This document shows, in pieces, positions 40,025 through 50,176 of a stretch of DNA of 64,000 nt. Numbering within the stretch: the stretch's first letter is position 1; every line of letters starts with the position of its first letter. The notes below the pieces were generated by a model, which searched no databases, had not been told where the DNA came from, and was given only the letters and a program-made list of their open reading frames with translations. Origin of the DNA: Geobacter sp. DSM 9736. Lineage in GTDB: Bacteria; Desulfobacterota; Desulfuromonadia; Geobacterales; Geobacteraceae. Where the stretch lies: positions 3,038,753 to 3,102,752 of the forward strand of contig NZ_LT896716.1 of NCBI RefSeq assembly GCF_900187405.1, read 5' to 3'. The position numbers and the translations under genes are program-made.

Positions 40025-41491
40025 GTGATTGCAACATCCTCCGAACTCATCACCGTACTCCGTCAATACAACCCCTGGTGGCGCGGTGCCCCATCAGCCG
40101 ATCTGCCAAGCTGGCGACGGCGGGCCTTTCACGACATCCTTACCTGGATGCAGTCTCCCCCCGCGCCACGGGCGCTGCTCCTTTACGGCGCGCGCCAGGT
40201 CGGGAAGACAACTCTCTTTCTCCAGGTAATCCAGGAGCTGATCGACAGCGGAGTCCCTCCCAACAAAATTCTTTACGCAACCTTTGATCATCCGCTGCTG
40301 AAACTGCTGGGACTTGACGGACTGCTCAAGCTGTGGCGGGAATTCGAACCGGAGAGCGACGGCATCGAATACCTCTTTCTCGATGAAATCCAGAGCGTCC
40401 GCGACTGGCAGACCTGGCTGAAGCTGCAGGTGGATTTCGAGAAGAAGCGTCGCATCGCCGTAACCGGCTCGGCCACTCCGCTGGTGACGGAGGGGCAGGA
40501 GTCCGGCGTCGGGCGCTGGCACACCCTGCGGCTTTCGACCCTGTCGTTCTTTGAATATCTGCAACTCAAACAGATAAACGTGCCACCGCTGCCGGAAATC
40601 AATTCACTCGCCCGGCTTTTTGAATGGAAACCGGCAGAGTTTGCCGCCGTGGCAGCGGATGCAGCGCCGCTGGTGGCTCATTTTCATGAATACCTCCTGC
40701 GGGGCGGTTTCCCGCAAAGCGCACTGATGGGGAGCATAACCGCAGCGCAGAAGCTGTTGCGCGAAGATATCGTGGACAAGGTGCTGAAGCGGGACATGAC
40801 GGCGCTCTTCGGTGTGCGCCATGTGCTTGAGCTTGAACAGGTCTTTCTTTACCTCTGTCTGCACGGCGGCGGGTTGTTGGATATGCAGGTGCTGTGTGGC
40901 GATCTGGAGCTGAAGAAGCCGACGGTGAATAACTTCATCAATCTGCTGGAGTCGACCCATTTAATCTACAAACTTCCCCCTTTCGGTTACGGCAAGGAGA
41001 TTCTGCGCGCCCGTTACAAGGTCTATCTGGCTGATGCTGCCATCTCTCCATCGGTGCTGCTCAAGGGAACTTCACTTCTGGAAGACCCTCTTGCCTTGGG
41101 CGTAGCGGTGGAGACGGCTTTTTTCAAGCACATCTTTGCCCGCTATTATTCACGCAGTGTGGGCTTTTCCTACTGGCGCGGCAGGAATGAGCGGGAGGTT
41201 GACATTGTCGCCGAGGTCGAGGGGCGACTGACGCCGTTCGAGGTGAAATACCGCTCACAAAGTACTGGTGCGGGGGAATTGAAGGGTCTTACGGAATTTT
41301 GCGAAGCACGCAAGGCTCCCCACGGCTATGTGATCACCAAGGAGATGCAGGATTTTTCCCTCCTTTCTCCGGGGAAAAATGTGGAAACCGGAAACGGGCA
41401 AGTGGCGATCAGTATAGCCAAGATACCAGCGCCACTGGCCTGTTACTGGCTTGGGAAGACCGAACTGGATGAAATGCCCGAATATACCTAA
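40025..41491 (+). CDS. AAA-type ATPase with DUF4143 domain
   Basis: A 488-aa protein starting at a GTG. Walker A is LLLYGARQVGKTTLFL (about 50-65), Walker B is YLFLDEIQSVRDWQTWL (about 115) and sensor 1 is AVTGSATPL. The C-terminal third is DUF4143, a nuclease-like fold: VETAFFKHIFARYYS and FSYWRGRNEREVDIVAEVEG, followed by FEVKYRSQ, with Asp/Glu/Lys positions as in PD-(D/E)XK proteins. Such ATPases are common, often horizontally spread, and of unknown role. Its 3' end overlaps the start of the dus gene by about 23 bp, which may mark the right edge of the accessory segment. Confidence 0.85.
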   Translation: MIATSSELITVLRQYNPWWRGAPSADLPSWRRRAFHDILTWMQSPPAPRALLLYGARQVGKTTLFLQVIQELIDSGVPPNKILYATFDHPLLKLLGLDGLLKLWREFEPESDGIEYLFLDEIQSVRDWQTWLKLQVDFEKKRRIAVTGSATPLVTEGQESGVGRWHTLRLSTLSFFEYLQLKQINVPPLPEINSLARLFEWKPAEFAAVAADAAPLVAHFHEYLLRGGFPQSALMGSITAAQKLLREDIVDKVLKRDMTALFGVRHVLELEQVFLYLCLHGGGLLDMQVLCGDLELKKPTVNNFINLLESTHLIYKLPPFGYGKEILRARYKVYLADAAISPSVLLKGTSLLEDPLALGVAVETAFFKHIFARYYSRSVGFSYWRGRNEREVDIVAEVEGRLTPFEVKYRSQSTGAGELKGLTEFCEARKAPHGYVITKEMQDFSLLSPGKNVETGNGQVAISIAKIPAPLACYWLGKTELDEMPEYT

Positions 41492-42500: not shown

Positions 42501-42800
42501 ATGAGATGGAACGTGTACATCATACTCTGCTCCGACGACACGCTCTATACGGGGATCACCACCAACATCGATCGACGCTGCCGCGAGCACGCGGCGGGAA
42601 GGGGCGCCAAGTATTTCCGGGGGCGCCAGCCGCTGCGGATCGTGTACCGGGAAGGCGGGCACACCCGGAGCAGTGCCGGGAAGCGGGAAGCCGGGATAAA
42701 ATCGCTGTCCCGGGAGGAAAAACTTCTCCTCATAGCTTCTGCGGGCACCGGGAGCCTGTCGGACGCAGGAAATCGTAGCGAATTGCACGATATGTCGTGA
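42501..42800 (+). CDS. GIY-YIG domain protein (UPF0213 type)
   Basis: A 99-aa single-domain protein. The motif is VYIILCSDDTLYTGITTNID with the catalytic Arg in DRRCREH and a Glu in KREAGIKSLSREEK. Stand-alone members of this family (YhbQ-like) have been linked to DNA maintenance, but their function is not settled. The next gene, a GNAT, follows on the same strand. Confidence 0.88.
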   Translation: MRWNVYIILCSDDTLYTGITTNIDRRCREHAAGRGAKYFRGRQPLRIVYREGGHTRSSAGKREAGIKSLSREEKLLLIASAGTGSLSDAGNRSELHDMS

Positions 42801-42893
42801 CATGCTATGGTGCCTTGCTTCCGAGACGCCTTGGCGGCAGGCATAGTTGAACGGTCCACTTCTGCACGACCGACAGATTTTCAGGGATTACAT

Positions 42894-43409
42894 ATGAAAA
42901 TACAGAAGGTGACCGAAGAGCATCACCCGAAGATCGACGCGCTCCTGCGCAGCGCCTTTCCCGGCAGCGAGTACGAAGCCGAGCTGGTGCGGCAATTCCA
43001 TGCAAACGGAAGACCCGTGCACGAGTGGGTCTGCCTGCATACCAACAGGGTCATCGCCTACATAGCTTTTTCCAACGCCTACCATGGTCGTGATGTCTGC
43101 GGATTGCACCTTGCGCCCATGGCCGTGGCACCCGACTTCCAGGGGAAAGGGGTCGGTTCGGAACTGCTCAGATTCGCCCTGCGGCAGGAGCCCATAAAAA
43201 CCCGGGCGCTGTTCGTGTTGGGGGAGCCCGGATATTACGGGAGGTTCGGCTTCGAACCGTGCAGCCAGCCTGCCTGCCCGTACGACAAGAACAACTCGCA
43301 CTTCCTGAGTATGAGGAACACGACCACCATCCCGTTTGTGGTAGGGTATGAGCCGGAGTTCAAGACAGCGGAGAAAACGCCGAAGCCCCAAGGGAAGAAG
43401 CGCCCTTGA
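42894..43409 (+). CDS. GNAT family N-acetyltransferase
   Basis: A 171-aa protein starting at 42894 behind CAGGGA; the frame is open further upstream to 42807. The acetyl-CoA-binding core is LAPMAVAPDFQGKGVGSELLRFAL, followed by FVLGEPGYYGRFGFEP, typical of YhbS-like acetyltransferases. The substrate is unknown. Its stop overlaps the TTG start of the next gene, which suggests translational coupling. Confidence 0.9.
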   Translation: MKIQKVTEEHHPKIDALLRSAFPGSEYEAELVRQFHANGRPVHEWVCLHTNRVIAYIAFSNAYHGRDVCGLHLAPMAVAPDFQGKGVGSELLRFALRQEPIKTRALFVLGEPGYYGRFGFEPCSQPACPYDKNNSHFLSMRNTTTIPFVVGYEPEFKTAEKTPKPQGKKRP

Positions 43410-44854
43410 GGACTCCCCAGGCCCCGACACTCTATCTGCTGGATGGCTCCAGCTACATCTACCGCGCCTATTACGGGATCCGTGACGGTGCCACCTCCGG
43501 CGGGATGCCCACCAATGCCATTTTCGGTTTCACGCGGATGCTCCTGGGGCTTCTGCAGGAGAACAAGCCCGACCGTCTGGCCGTCGTCTTCGACCCTCCA
43601 CGTGAAGAAACCTTCCGCCGTGACATCTATCCTGCCTACAAGGCCCACCGTGACGCCATGCCCGAGGATCTGGTGATCCAGGTCCCGTACATCAGAAGGA
43701 TAGTGCAGGCCCTCAATATCACCGCCGTCGAAGCTCCCGGGTTCGAAGCCGACGATGTCATTGCCACCCTGGCACGGGCCGGCGCCGCGGAAGGTTTCGA
43801 GGTCACGGTCGTCACCGGAGACAAGGATCTGCTACAGATCGTCACCGACAGGATCGGCCTCCTTGATACCATGAAAGGCATCCGCTCCGGGCCGCAGGAG
43901 GTACTGGATCGTTTCGGCGTCCCGCCGGAACGGGTGGTGGACGTGCTGGGTCTGGCGGGGGACGCCGCAGACAACATTCCCGGTGTTCCGGGCATCGGGG
44001 AGAAGACCGCTGCCGGTCTCGTCCAGCGGTTCGGCTCCCTGGAAGGGGTGCTGGAGTGGACAAGTCTCGTCAGCGGGAAAGCCCGCCGGGAAAGCCTCCG
44101 TTCCCACGCCGGGCAGGCCAGGCTTTCCAAAACGCTCGCTACGGTCCGTTATGATGTCCCGCTCGGGTTGTCCCCTGCCGACCTGCAGAGGCGGCCGCCG
44201 AACCTTGCGGAGCTGATTCCCCTGCTCCGCGAGCTGGAGTTCGCGCCCCTTGAGGCGGCATTCACCCCGCCACCGCCGGGAGTGGTGGAGATATACAGCG
44301 ACGGGTCGGGAAGGGATTCCGGGCCCGGCGGCTATGGCGTCATTTTGCGCTACGGAGCGCATGAGAAAGAACTGAGCGGTTTCGAGCCGGAGGCAACCTC
44401 CCAACGGATGGAGCTCATTGCGGCGATCAGGGGGCTGGAAGCGCTGAATGCGCCGAGGAAAGTGCGCCTCTTCAGCGATTCCCAGTATCTGGTCCGGGGG
44501 ATGAGCGAGTGGCTTCAGGGATGGATCCGCACCGGCCGACTTGAGACCCCGGATGCGCTGAAAAACCAGGATCTCTGGCTGGAGCTTGCTGCTCTCTCCC
44601 GGAAGCACCAGGTCACCTGCCAATGGGTGCCCGGTCACGCCGGGCATCACTTCAACGAGAGGTGCGACAAGCTGGCAAAGCGGGCCGCCGAGGAGGGTGC
44701 GCGGGCGGCCGTGACGGCACAGCCGCCGAAAGAAGTCCTCGAAGTTGAGAAAGCCTTACCTCTGCCAGTGGCTCTCGATTCCCACGATCCGGGGTGTGGA
44801 TGTGAAGTGACCACGTTTGAAGCCGATGCCGATGGTCAGCTCACTTTCTGCTAG
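43406..44854 (+). CDS. Fusion of 5'-3' exonuclease (FEN/PolI N-terminal type) with RNase HI
   Basis: A 482-aa protein with a TTG start behind GGGAAGAAG. Residues 8-285 are a PolI-type 5' nuclease: Asp13 (LLDGSSYIYRAYYG), Asp63 (VVFDPPREETFRRD), the acidic run FEADD at 113-117, TGDKD at 137-141, Asp186 and Asp189, then the H3TH segment GVPGIGEKTAAGLVQRFGS. Residues 292-432 are RNase HI with all four carboxylates: Asp299 (YSDGSG), Glu336 (RMEL), Asp358 (FSDSQ) and Asp421 (ERCDKLAK). There is no polymerase domain. Both activities remove RNA primers, so Okazaki fragment maturation or R-loop repair is a natural role. The C-terminal 50 residues end in a Cys-containing acidic tail of unknown use. 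Confidence 0.92.
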   Translation: MRTPQAPTLYLLDGSSYIYRAYYGIRDGATSGGMPTNAIFGFTRMLLGLLQENKPDRLAVVFDPPREETFRRDIYPAYKAHRDAMPEDLVIQVPYIRRIVQALNITAVEAPGFEADDVIATLARAGAAEGFEVTVVTGDKDLLQIVTDRIGLLDTMKGIRSGPQEVLDRFGVPPERVVDVLGLAGDAADNIPGVPGIGEKTAAGLVQRFGSLEGVLEWTSLVSGKARRESLRSHAGQARLSKTLATVRYDVPLGLSPADLQRRPPNLAELIPLLRELEFAPLEAAFTPPPPGVVEIYSDGSGRDSGPGGYGVILRYGAHEKELSGFEPEATSQRMELIAAIRGLEALNAPRKVRLFSDSQYLVRGMSEWLQGWIRTGRLETPDALKNQDLWLELAALSRKHQVTCQWVPGHAGHHFNERCDKLAKRAAEEGARAAVTAQPPKEVLEVEKALPLPVALDSHDPGCGCEVTTFEADADGQLTFC

Positions 44855-46419: not shown

Positions 46420-46782
46420 TCAGCGAGCAGCCTGATCCAGCAAGTAGTTCATCAGGTCCACGGAAGATTTAATTTCCTGCTTGTTCATGTTGGAATCGGG
46501 CTTACGCATCATCTTTATTCCGTAGGCTTTAGTTTCGCTGCGGGTGAAAGGCTGTCCCGTTATGGGCGCGACCCCCGTGGTAATTGCCACGACTGTTCTT
46601 TCCATTGTGTGACACTTCACGCACTTCACCTTCATGACCTGAAAGTTGGCTTTCATGTCGGGCGGGTAAGCGGATGGATCGAAGGTCATGGTGTCCCCCT
46701 TGCCTACGATTTTCAATCCTGCGTGCGCTTCAACTGCGGCCAGGCTAAGCGCCGCGATCGCCCATACAATGTGTCTTCTCAC
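46420..46782 (-). CDS. Small monoheme c-type cytochrome
   Basis: A 120-aa periplasmic protein with a signal peptide (MRRHIVWAIAALSLAAVEAHA). A single heme-binding CVKCH lies about residue 54, followed by Met-rich GIKMMRKPDSNMNKQEI, any Met of which could be the sixth heme ligand. The helical end (VDLMNYLLDQA) resembles class I cytochromes. It lies 24 bp downstream of the heme-porin gene on the same strand, so the pair probably works together in electron transfer across the periplasm. Confidence 0.85.
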   Translation of the reverse strand: MRRHIVWAIAALSLAAVEAHAGLKIVGKGDTMTFDPSAYPPDMKANFQVMKVKCVKCHTMERTVVAITTGVAPITGQPFTRSETKAYGIKMMRKPDSNMNKQEIKSSVDLMNYLLDQAAR

Positions 46783-46806
46783 AACTAATCCTCCTGGAGC
46801 ATGCCT

Positions 46807-48141
46807 TTAGAAGCTGAACGTAATGCCGATCTGTCCAAGTCTGTTGGTCGCCGGCGCTGATATTTCATGCTTGTACTCCGCTACGAGCCGTATATTCTGC
46901 AACGGTGCATAGGCTACCGCAGGTATATACCGGCGTGTGATCCCGGTACCGTCATCCTGATGCTCGTAACGAAACGTCGTGATGACTTCTGAGCCTATGA
47001 GCAATTCGGCTTCCGCTGCCATTACCGTTGAGTCCACCTCCTGCGGCACCGATATGAAATCGGGGTTGTCATCCTTCCCCTTTACACCCGACAACCTCAG
47101 CCTGAGGCGCTTATAGCTCAGATCAACATCGGCGCCCGCCCGATAGAACTTATTGGTCTTATCGGCAACGGATGCTATTACAGAAGCGTTACGTCCATAA
47201 TATCCGTAGACCCCGCAGGTAAGCATGAGATAGTCGAAGATGCTTTCCTCCTTCTCGAAGTCTATCTCCGGCTCGTTTCCGACGAAGTCTGCTCCTCCTA
47301 CCTTGAATGATACGTGGCCGTATCCCTCCTTGCTGTCCTGCCCGTTCCTGTCAACTACCCCCGCTGCTACAAATAGGCGGTTCGCAAGGACCGCATTGGC
47401 TTCGAGTGCATCGGCGGGAGAATCCAGAGTGAACTGTGAACGTCCGACCCTGTAAACGTGAGGTGCGAAGGAGGTGACGGTTGCCCTGTTGCTCGATTTC
47501 CAGAGGCTTAGCTTTGGCTTCAATCTTCCTATCCTTATGTTTACCGGTGTGTCAAAGGCATGACGCCATACAAGAAACAGTTCGCGAACTGTCGACGAAT
47601 TGTTTCCGGGAACGTTGCTGGTGAAGGGATCATATCTGCCTTCCGTGTAGAGGTTGAAGGTTCCGAAAAAACCTGCCTTGTCACGGAAGGCGCCTCCAAC
47701 CTGAAGCACCAGCGCACGTGTAGCCAGATCCAGTTTGTCCGCCGCGTTGTCGTCATAGGCTATGTCCTGCGAGGCGGAGAAAGAGATGGGAAGAAAGTCG
47801 GGGATGCCGGAAAGCAGAATGGCCTCATTCGTTTCCTTGGCTGTATTGCCTGACTGTGGAATCGCCGCATTGCGCTTGAGGAATTCCAGCTGGGACGGAT
47901 CTCCTTCCCCCTGAATCGCCGGTAGTGCGGGTTTCTCAGCTGCCCGATGGTTCACATAAACGTACCCGTTTTTGAGGAATACCTCACCGTATTCATTCAG
48001 CTCCGGGTAGATGGTGTGGCATGTGGAGCATTCCGTTTTGTACTGCCTGGTGAAGGCGGGGATAGCATGAGCGGAGTCGAAGGGAATCAGCGGCGCCATT
48101 GCTGCCGCAATAAGGACTAGTTTATGGAACTTCTTTTGCAT
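46807..48141 (-). CDS. Fused monoheme cytochrome-outer membrane porin (Cyc2-like architecture)
   Basis: A 444-aa protein with AGGAGG before the ATG and a signal peptide (LVLIAAAMAPLIPFDSAHA). Right after cleavage comes one heme site, FTRQYKTECSTCHTIYPELN, followed by NEYGEVFLKNGY. The rest is a beta-barrel: alternating strands such as FFGTFNLYTEGRYD, VNIRIGRLKPKLSLW and VITTFRYEHQDD, ending in a terminal Phe (GQIGITFSF), the usual outer-membrane signature. The layout (N-terminal heme, then about 400-aa porin) is that of Cyc2-type iron oxidases and their relatives. It may pass electrons through the outer membrane. Direction and partner are not known. Confidence 0.82.
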   Translation of the reverse strand: MQKKFHKLVLIAAAMAPLIPFDSAHAIPAFTRQYKTECSTCHTIYPELNEYGEVFLKNGYVYVNHRAAEKPALPAIQGEGDPSQLEFLKRNAAIPQSGNTAKETNEAILLSGIPDFLPISFSASQDIAYDDNAADKLDLATRALVLQVGGAFRDKAGFFGTFNLYTEGRYDPFTSNVPGNNSSTVRELFLVWRHAFDTPVNIRIGRLKPKLSLWKSSNRATVTSFAPHVYRVGRSQFTLDSPADALEANAVLANRLFVAAGVVDRNGQDSKEGYGHVSFKVGGADFVGNEPEIDFEKEESIFDYLMLTCGVYGYYGRNASVIASVADKTNKFYRAGADVDLSYKRLRLRLSGVKGKDDNPDFISVPQEVDSTVMAAEAELLIGSEVITTFRYEHQDDGTGITRRYIPAVAYAPLQNIRLVAEYKHEISAPATNRLGQIGITFSF

Positions 48142-48346
48142 TTAGTAACCTCCTGAGTTGCCCGCACGAGAACTGGCCATTCCAGAGTGCACAAAAGATA
48201 CCATCTTCTGTCTCAATGACAGTGCCATCAGCAGGTATAAAAGAATAATTAGAGTCAGCTATGTCAGCCAACTGAATGAGAGATGGAAGCTATATGGTTG
48301 TACTGCAAGAGCCAGTTATGGTTATGTATGAAACGGAGCGAAAAAC

Positions 48347-50176
48347 GTGAAACCAGTCTCATTGATGTCTTTAATGCTGCTTGTCCCATTGGCTTTTACA
48401 GGATGCGGCAATACTACTGTTGAAGTGGGGGCATCGTCCGCTCTGCTTGATTCGGAATCCTGCACAAGTTGTCATGACACTGCAATATCCCGTGTTACCG
48501 GCGAACTCGTGGCGGAACAATGGAAGCGGTCGGTCCATGCAACCAGGAACGGTGCCGGATGCCGCGACTGCCATGAGCCGGCGCCCGGCCACCCAAACAG
48601 CTGCTGGGGGTGCCATGGAGGCATCCCTGCCCCTTCGTCAAGAACTCATGACGTGGTCCAGAATCCGGACACCTCCCTGAAGTGCCTGGTCTGCCACAGC
48701 GCCCAAACCCTCGGCGCGCCCCACTTCAGCACGGTGACAGTTCTCAATGCCGGAACAGCCGCTTATCCTGCTTCCTTTGCCGACGGCCGCTATGTGGGAA
48801 ACTGCCTTGCCTGCCACGACCCCCACGACCCAACCACGGAGATGCCGCTGACACGCCAGTGGGCTGCGTCTGGGCATGGCGAAACGACAGCCGCTGCATG
48901 GGCGGCACATGATTTCAAGGCAAGGGGCACTTCAGGTGCGATCCCTGCCGCAAGCGTTGCAGAGGATTGTGTAAGGTGCCACACCACGACCGGATACATA
49001 AACTACGTAACATCCGGGTTCAAAAACATCTCCGGCTGGGGCCGGCAGAACCTCGTAAACCTGCCGGATGGTAACGGAACGCCAAACCATTTCAATGCTT
49101 CGGACCTGACAAAGCAGGTACTGGCTTGCAACGGTTGCCATGATGATGGAAGCGGGAACGCCTACAACTGGAAAAGGCTGCGCAGCGTGGGAAGAGTACC
49201 TGCATACGTAAATTACTCCTCCAGGTTCGGAAAGGTGCTCATCAACGATCTGCTACCTGACCTTGCCGCTTCGAACACCTGCGTCCCCTGCCACACGAGC
49301 CGCCAGAGCGGCAGGTCGATCAAAGCACTGGAGACGGCGGAAGCGGCTTCCGGTGTCTTTGCGGTCTTCTCCTCGGCTGGAGGACTTCCCTTTGTGGATG
49401 CCCACGATATGACAGCTGGTTCGACCGTCTACAGAACCTCGGGTTACGAATATGTCGGGCGGGATTATACGAATCTGCCTCATTACGAACATGATGAGAT
49501 AGGTCTTCGCAGCTCCGGCCTCGAAAGCAACGGAACCGGCACGAACGGCCCCTGCATCGGATGTCACATGACGTCGGCGGAAGGGCACTCTCTTAAGGTC
49601 GTTCAGGAAGAAAATGACGCAGCCAAAGTTTTGACTGGAGGTGTGGGGATTACGGCGATCAGCAGCCGGATGTGCGTAGTATGCCATTCCGGAGCGGATG
49701 CACGGACTGCTTCCTCAATGCAGCGCGAGAAAGAAGGCTTCAACGCCGCTCTGGCTGCGCTGGCAAAAGCGTTGAAAAACCGCGGGTTCGTGTTCCGTGG
49801 CAATCCGGCGAGCTTCAGCAACAAAAACTGGCAGACCGACAGAGGGGGGATAGGCGGTTTTGGAGCGGGAACTGGTGGCAGAACCCTTGGAGCTGCCTTC
49901 AACTTCAACCTTCTCCGCAGGGATACGGGCGCTTATGTGCACAACAATATTTATGCGAAACGCCTGATTCACGACTCGATCCATTGGATCGTCAATGGCC
50001 CCAACGGTGCCGTATCCGTTGAAAATGCCATCAGGAGCCTACCGAACGACCCTGCTCTTATATTCGGACTGGACGGGAGCACCATCAACTTCGACAATGC
50101 GGTTAAATCCGCAGCCATCGCCTATCTGCTGGGGACCGATCTTAATCCCACAGGTACCGGAGGCGCTCGCCCGTGA
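48347..50176 (+). CDS. Decaheme c-type cytochrome lipoprotein
   Basis: A 609-aa protein starting at a GTG. The signal has a lipobox (LAFTGC, Cys about 20), so it is anchored to a membrane, possibly facing the outside. Ten CxxCH motifs are present: CTSCH, CRDCH, CWGCH, CLVCH, CLACH, CVRCH, CNGCH, CVPCH, CIGCH and CVVCH. Single His residues between them (for example in KRSVHAT, GHGETT and PHYEHDE) can act as distal ligands. The C-terminal 150 residues have no heme. It diverges from the heme-porin gene with 205 bp between, and may form an electron conduit with it. It does not look like a known OmcB, OmcS or OmcZ. Confidence 0.88.
   Translation: MKPVSLMSLMLLVPLAFTGCGNTTVEVGASSALLDSESCTSCHDTAISRVTGELVAEQWKRSVHATRNGAGCRDCHEPAPGHPNSCWGCHGGIPAPSSRTHDVVQNPDTSLKCLVCHSAQTLGAPHFSTVTVLNAGTAAYPASFADGRYVGNCLACHDPHDPTTEMPLTRQWAASGHGETTAAAWAAHDFKARGTSGAIPAASVAEDCVRCHTTTGYINYVTSGFKNISGWGRQNLVNLPDGNGTPNHFNASDLTKQVLACNGCHDDGSGNAYNWKRLRSVGRVPAYVNYSSRFGKVLINDLLPDLAASNTCVPCHTSRQSGRSIKALETAEAASGVFAVFSSAGGLPFVDAHDMTAGSTVYRTSGYEYVGRDYTNLPHYEHDEIGLRSSGLESNGTGTNGPCIGCHMTSAEGHSLKVVQEENDAAKVLTGGVGITAISSRMCVVCHSGADARTASSMQREKEGFNAALAALAKALKNRGFVFRGNPASFSNKNWQTDRGGIGGFGAGTGGRTLGAAFNFNLLRRDTGAYVHNNIYAKRLIHDSIHWIVNGPNGAVSVENAIRSLPNDPALIFGLDGSTINFDNAVKSAAIAYLLGTDLNPTGTGGARP

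Follow-up and report, generated by a model that had tools for sequence, protein, structure and literature searches.

The locus at positions 43406–44854 of the window (the whole stretch of DNA that was analysed, 64,000 nucleotides long) raises the question whether a Pol I-type 5′ nuclease (FEN) and an RNase HI can be joined in one genuine bacterial enzyme and, if so, what such an enzyme would do in a cell. A preliminary description of this DNA, made from its letters, had read the frame as a single protein of exactly this kind, without a polymerase domain, and had regarded it as a plausible self-contained primer-removal enzyme. The features of the locus are the following:

42894–43409, + strand: GNAT acetyltransferase gene, overlapping the start of the fusion gene by 4 bp (TTGA, shared by the GNAT stop and the TTG start of the fusion); a longer frame begins at 42807
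43406–44854, + strand: fusion gene in full, 482 aa and a stop codon, with a predicted TTG start; supported by Pfam and by 62 relatives
43427–44203, + strand: Pol I-type 5′ nuclease (FEN), residues 8–266, with nine metal carboxylates
44204–44284, + strand: junction, residues 267–293; the Pol I-like stretch reaches about residue 284
44285–44689, + strand: RNase HI domain, residues 294–428, with D299, E336, D358, H411 and D421
44510–44578, + strand: handle region of RNase HI, residues 369–391, with its basic charge lost and R378 replacing W
44702–44815, + strand: variable linker, residues 433–470, with disorder predicted from residue 442
44816–44851, + strand: conserved C-terminal tail, residues 471–482 (FEADADGQLTFC), resembling a clamp motif

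Two complete nuclease domains in one protein

The predicted TTG start of the fusion gene is preceded by AAGGGAAG, which ends 8 nt 5′ of it. In the encoded protein, Pfam identified the families 5_3_exonuc_N (residues 8–171, E 4.7e-57), 5_3_exonuc (residues 172–266, E 4.3e-30) and RNase_H (residues 294–428, E 6.1e-36; 124.1 bits against a cut-off of 25.8). A scan at E 0.001 yielded no fourth family, and with neither a polymerase domain nor a 3′-5′ exonuclease found by Pfam, the proposed absence of a polymerase domain was confirmed. All three families were also present in each of the 44 relatives (of 62 fusions) that were scanned at E 0.001. The reading as one protein is borne out both by Pfam and by the 62 relatives. 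The NCBIfam model of DNA polymerase I matches residues 8–284 of the fusion with its positions 2–279 of 889 (326.9 bits against a cut-off of 720). As the FEN half stops at the FEN boundary of Pol I itself, RNase HI occupies the place of the Klenow part. The NCBIfam RNase HI model matches residues 294–432 with 158.6 bits, which is just below its cut-off of 160.

A predicted model of the fusion, based on a 46-row alignment (mean pLDDT 85.2, pTM 0.79), is confident across most of FEN and RNase HI, and its pLDDT drops below 50 at residues 373–379 and 442–482. In a sequence comparison with solved structures, the best relatives are Pol I of M. smegmatis and Taq polymerase (both with their N-termini), a 5′-3′ exonuclease family protein (9l55, 9l56), the FEN of M. 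smegmatis and RNase HI of the E. coli type. A Foldseek search with the predicted model agrees with these sequence-based relatives, and its matches include the discrete-FEN structures 6c33 and 3zdb.

The nine FEN and four RNase HI carboxylates named in the preliminary description are all present in the frame 43406–44854, and they are almost invariant among its relatives. D13, E114, D116, D117, D139, D141 and D189 of FEN as well as D299 of RNase HI are kept in 62 of 62 fusions, D63 is kept in 60 (E in the other two) and D186 in 61 (A in one). Where the copies cover the respective positions of RNase HI, E336 and D358 (61 of 61 each) and D421 (59 of 59) are kept without exception. The same holds for H411 (59/59), which, from its GHAGH context, we take to be the catalytic histidine of RNase HI. 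Over 11 close pairs of fusions, dN/dS ranged from 0.05 to 0.19 for FEN and from 0.03 to 0.18 for RNase HI, in comparison to 0.20 to 1.30 for the linker. For the last 12 residues, a short stretch for which the estimate is rough, dN was zero in seven of the 11 pairs. Both the FEN and the RNase HI domain are under purifying selection, and the linker is relaxed. That 62 of the 277 genomes from the class have the fusion and that dN/dS is low in both domains excludes a chance joining as well as a frameshift artefact, which had initially been considered as an origin of the frame. The one copy in which the metal ligand D186 is replaced by A (L205, genome G204) might have a FEN activity that is being lost, or it might reflect a sequencing error.

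With regard to known proteins, the N-terminal FEN of bacterial Pol I (PolA) has the same two Pfam domains, the same nine carboxylates and the same boundary as the FEN of the fusion, and the one encoded in the same genome is 56% identical to it. PolA differs, however, in that it carries a 3′-5′ exonuclease and a polymerase where the fusion carries RNase HI, and its FEN belongs to a separate group of the tree. The discrete FENs, i.e., FenA/YpcP of B. subtilis, the M. smegmatis FEN and ExoIX/Xni of E. coli, are like the fusion in being FENs without a polymerase. Yet, FenA is a single-domain protein (PMC10191290, available part), and ExoIX has only one of the two metal sites (PMC3783174, available part). 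With the NCBIfam models PRK14976 and Xni, the fusion also scores under the respective cut-offs (151.3 against 261 for Xni). The RNase HI domain is of the same family as RnhA, with which it shares the D-E-D-H-D residues, and it is 49% identical to the RnhA of its own genome. Unlike the fusion, RnhA has kept the basic handle with its tryptophan and is not joined to a FEN.

Distribution, neighbours and housekeeping enzymes

With matches better than 1e-139 taken as fusions, the class to which the window belongs has the fusion in 62 of its 277 genomes (four of the copies, from G007, G201, G203 and G268, are not full-length as fetched). These genomes are scattered patchily over 16 of 25 families, and the remaining 215 show no fusion. 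It was found in none of the 375 genomes that were sampled in the phylum's other classes, where the best match (3.2e-102) covers the FEN part alone (residues 7–287). In a sample of 394 genomes from the phylum, the fusion occurred only in the window's genome and in two more of its family. A pattern-limited scan of contigs yielded 16 fusions among 80 of 119 matching loci, and the records of these 16 are titled Geobacteraceae, Desulfuromonadales, related names or just Deltaproteobacteria; given the pattern limit, other lineages may have fusions of independent origin. Among plasmid and phage records, none contains 80% of the fusion in one place, and a pattern-limited search of viral contigs gave three partial matches, each to one domain or the other. 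A match on a Caballeronia plasmid that runs beyond FEN was taken as an ordinary Pol I; it carries the Pol I exonuclease domain.

A search of the published literature by titles and the beginnings of abstracts, with subscription papers and domain databases outside its reach, found no study of the fusion. Standalone FENs were counted in a survey from 2026 that dealt with bacterial DNA polymerases, and in its available part 'RNase H' occurs only in the reference list, so the fusion is not discussed there in those words (PMC12926913). The earlier caveat that such a fusion might turn out to be widespread and already characterised does not fit these results, as it was encountered in one class only (with a pattern-limited search elsewhere) and no paper on it was found. 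The fusion combines known domains in an arrangement that is lineage-specific, selected and apparently undescribed.

In a quick tree of the FENs from 62 fusions and 41 Pol I proteins, for which a midpoint root was used for drawing only, the fusion FENs cluster together, separately from those of Pol I (SH-aLRT 100, branch 0.54). For the 34 genomes with both proteins, the mean identity between families is 76% for the fusion FEN versus 64% for the Pol I FEN, and the identity within families is alike (82% and 81%, respectively), with a correlation of 0.53. This higher identity between families, taken with a few moderately supported placements across family borders in the tree, suggests a history of transfer between families plus loss; slower evolution of the fusion is an alternative.

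The genome of the window (one contig, 3.96 Mb) also carries polA (a 916-aa frame), a separate rnhA and RNase HII. A lack of a separate rnhA, for which the preliminary description had suggested a check, was therefore not borne out, and the fusion as a replacement of rnhA was rejected for this genome. Across the class, 42 of the 62 fusion genomes were tested for a separate RNase HI, which 37 of them have, and a Pol I FEN with all nine carboxylates was found in each of the 34 fusion genomes that were checked for it. From these counts the fusion is mostly an extra enzyme. The five genomes without a separate RNase HI are G160 (100% complete, 420 contigs), G024 (93%) as well as G025, G047 and G074 (78–85%), and with such completeness and contig counts the missing gene may reflect gaps in the assemblies. 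In G160, which is listed as 100% complete, the fusion (L155) is the only RNase HI found, which makes this genome a natural test case for a fusion standing in for RnhA.

Close relatives of the GNAT acetyltransferase lie in the flanks of 28 of the 62 fusion loci, each of them on the strand of the fusion; the search extended over up to 6 kb of flank at 42 loci and 2 kb at 20, with shorter flanks near contig ends. At 21 of these 28 loci the GNAT gene is within 300 bp of the fusion, and it is located upstream at eight and downstream at 20. Of the 62 fusion genomes 40 have GNAT, versus 49 of the 215 others, counts that are uncorrected for kinship, and GNAT is a possible partner of the fusion.

Immediately upstream of the GNAT gene, the window contains a GIY-YIG gene (42501–42800, 99 aa), for which a match was found in the flank of just one other of the 62 fusion loci (L128); the GIY-YIG and GNAT pair resembles yhbQ-yhbS of E. 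coli. An AAA_14/DUF4143 ATPase at 40025–41491 has relatives near the fusion at two other loci (L125 and L127). In the region 46420–50176, a 444-aa frame that Pfam does not match has CSTCH close to its N-terminus; it is accompanied by a small frame containing CVKCH and by a multihaem cytochrome of the MtrC/MtrF-like kind, and the region is perhaps an outer-membrane electron-transfer cluster.

Handle of RNase HI and C-terminal tail

The basic protrusion of E. coli RNase HI holds the RNA-DNA hybrid. The corresponding handle region of the fusion (residues 369–391) has a net charge of −3 to +2 (mean −0.71) among 59 fusions, three of the 62 being too short for inclusion, whereas the same region of separate RnhAs from fusion genomes has a net charge of +3 to +5 (mean 3.47; n = 30 of 37), without any overlap between both groups. 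The handle tryptophan is present in 30 of 30 RnhAs, and in the 59 fusions it is replaced by R in 58 and by K in one. A basic handle of the E. coli type, which some RNases HI do without, is hence absent from the fusion, and judging from the aligned sequences its RNase HI domain has lost the basic handle charge. For one group of published RNases HI without this basic protrusion, an added hybrid-binding domain has been proposed as compensation, and archaeal handle-less RNases HI retain weak activity alone (PMC1950709, available part). Because of the latter, a dependence of the RNase HI domain on FEN is not forced. The B. halodurans-type RNase HI with its dsRHbd is similar to the fusion in being handle-less and joined to a module that possibly holds the substrate (as described in the same part of PMC1950709). 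However, this module is a small binding domain, whereas the partner in the fusion is a complete nuclease.

Beyond the RNase HI domain, the mean modal frequency is 0.45 in the linker (residues 433–470) compared to 0.89 in the last seven residues (41 fusions; one truncated row excluded). Each of the 58 full-length copies, the most diverged ones included, carries the pattern [DE]GQ[LFYQ]x[LF][CYV] at its C-terminus or one residue short of it, and when everything beyond residue 432 was shuffled, GQ fell within the last eight residues in at most four of 58. The bacterial clamp-binding motif has been given as Q-aliphatic-x-[L/M]-[F/L], or with one extra residue before the last; its flanks are mostly acidic, it is located in the C-terminal tail of Pol II and Pol IV, and its last position has strong requirements according to a review (PMC11139829, available part). 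The tails of the fusions carry Q at position 1 in 58 of 58 copies, an aliphatic residue at position 2 in 52 and L/M at position 4 in 57, and the eight residues before GQ include two to six acidic ones (mean 4.0), followed by a hydrophobic free C-terminus. The final F/L/I of the motif, however, is found at position 5 in none of the 58 tails, the last residue being C, Y or V, and the single tail with a sixth residue has R there. The window's own tail (QLTFC) departs from the motif also at position 4, where it has F. Regular clamp motifs occur in DinB (QLSLF) and ImuB (QMELF) of the same genome, names that reflect the author's reading of two IMS_C matches. With the final F/L/I in none of 58 tails and the window's copy deviating at position 4 as well, the tail is not classed as a canonical clamp motif, although it may work like one.

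Among other proteins of the genome ending in GQLxL[FCY], one further DNA match was found (L256), and a backward control pattern also gave two matches. L256, which lies in a 147-aa frame opposite a 346-aa frame, was taken as spurious. An EF-hand reading of DADADG was dropped, as the first acidic residues are not conserved and the chain stops short of the end of such a loop. Metal-binding cysteines were likewise rejected, the CGC pair of the window being present in no other of 41 rows. In the predicted model, the tail makes no confident contact.

A possible function in primer removal

The conserved fusion, its two complete active sites and the lack of a polymerase make a primer-removal enzyme plausible, and to this extent the initial proposal of a self-contained enzyme stands. 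It does not stand as far as the fusion would substitute for missing enzymes, since polA, rnhA and RNase HII are kept, and the intact Pol I FENs and the mostly present separate RNases HI leave no gap for the fusion to fill. The lost handle charge, the C-terminal motif and the recurrent GNAT neighbour had not been noted in the preliminary description. The reading preferred here, which seems to us about equally balanced between right and wrong and is drawn from sequence comparison, is that of an accessory nuclease that would act behind the replication fork and remove RNA primers or 5′ RNA-DNA junctions of a similar kind, with FEN docking on the substrate and the tail acting in recruitment. At the 5′ end of the downstream fragment, FEN would recognise a nick, gap or flap and so position RNase HI on the primer. 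RNase HI would cut inside the primer RNA, and FEN would clear the leftover ribonucleotides and the flap, leaving a gap that Pol I could fill and a nick that ligase could seal. The tail would bring the enzyme to the fork, most simply via the beta clamp, and the fusion would act beside Pol I and RnhA, not in their stead. Points against this reading are the last tail residue, which is never F, L or I, the housekeeping enzymes kept alongside the fusion, the 215 of 277 class genomes that show no fusion, and the weak activity that archaeal handle-less RNases HI have alone. A more specific form, in which a docking FEN, a handle-less RNase HI that depends on it and a noncanonical GQLxL-C/Y peptide on the sliding clamp make up a fork-tethered primer remover with two sites, is conceivable but should be regarded as tentative.

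The chief rival concerns the tail, which might be an acidic-hydrophobic end similar to the tip of SSB (DDDIPF), folding back on RNase HI or binding a partner of SSB and thereby serving regulation. The acidic stretch before GQ and the hydrophobic free C-terminus of the 58 copies would suit such an end, as would the missing final residue of the clamp motif, and the C-terminus of SSB is indeed bound by E. coli RNase HI (PMC11253446, available part). However, the invariant Q, the leucine at position 4 in 57 of 58 tails and the Lxx-L spacing suit the clamp motif better, and a confident tail contact is missing from the predicted model, so that this explanation appears possible, yet doubtful. Somewhat less probable still, but to be reckoned with, is a function of the whole protein in clearing R-loops and hybrids or in repair, for example at transcription-replication conflicts or at ribonucleotides left in DNA, where RNase HI would cut the RNA and FEN would trim the 5′ flap. 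A fusion that is patchily distributed and supplementary to a full housekeeping set is what would be expected of a stress function, and the removal of R-loops is the main task of E. coli RNase HI (PMC11253446, available part). The 5′ ends on which the FEN partner works, on the other hand, are those of nicks, gaps and flaps, which are typical of Okazaki fragments, and the neighbouring genes contain no pointer to R-loops.

The patchy spread, the identity between families that suggests transfer and the frequent same-strand GNAT neighbour could also be explained by a mobile or defensive module of two genes, the fusion and the adjoining GNAT, that is not part of the replication equipment. This is very unlikely, as PADLOC matched neither of both proteins, no plasmid or phage record covers the fusion to 80%, GNAT is missing in 22 of 62 fusion genomes and 49 genomes without the fusion have it (kinship uncorrected). 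That the fusion is neutral or redundant and has no task of its own might be argued from the housekeeping versions of both activities; purifying selection on both domains and catalytic residues kept throughout 62 genomes and 16 families render this explanation hardly credible.

In archaea and eukaryotes, FEN1 and RNase H2 are tethered to PCNA by a short peptide and cut the 5′ flap and the RNA, respectively. Unlike the fusion, these are separate proteins with another type of RNase H and a PIP box, and the tethering of the fusion is putative. If the fork-tethered form of primer removal is true, the fusion would be a one-chain bacterial counterpart of the PCNA-tethered FEN1 and RNase H2. In bacteria, the respective shares of Pol I, discrete FENs and RNase H in primer removal are under re-examination (PMC10191290, available part), and the fusion makes this division of labour testable within one chain. 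As for the tail, binding to the clamp would widen the known motif, and otherwise the tail would point to another partner at the fork.
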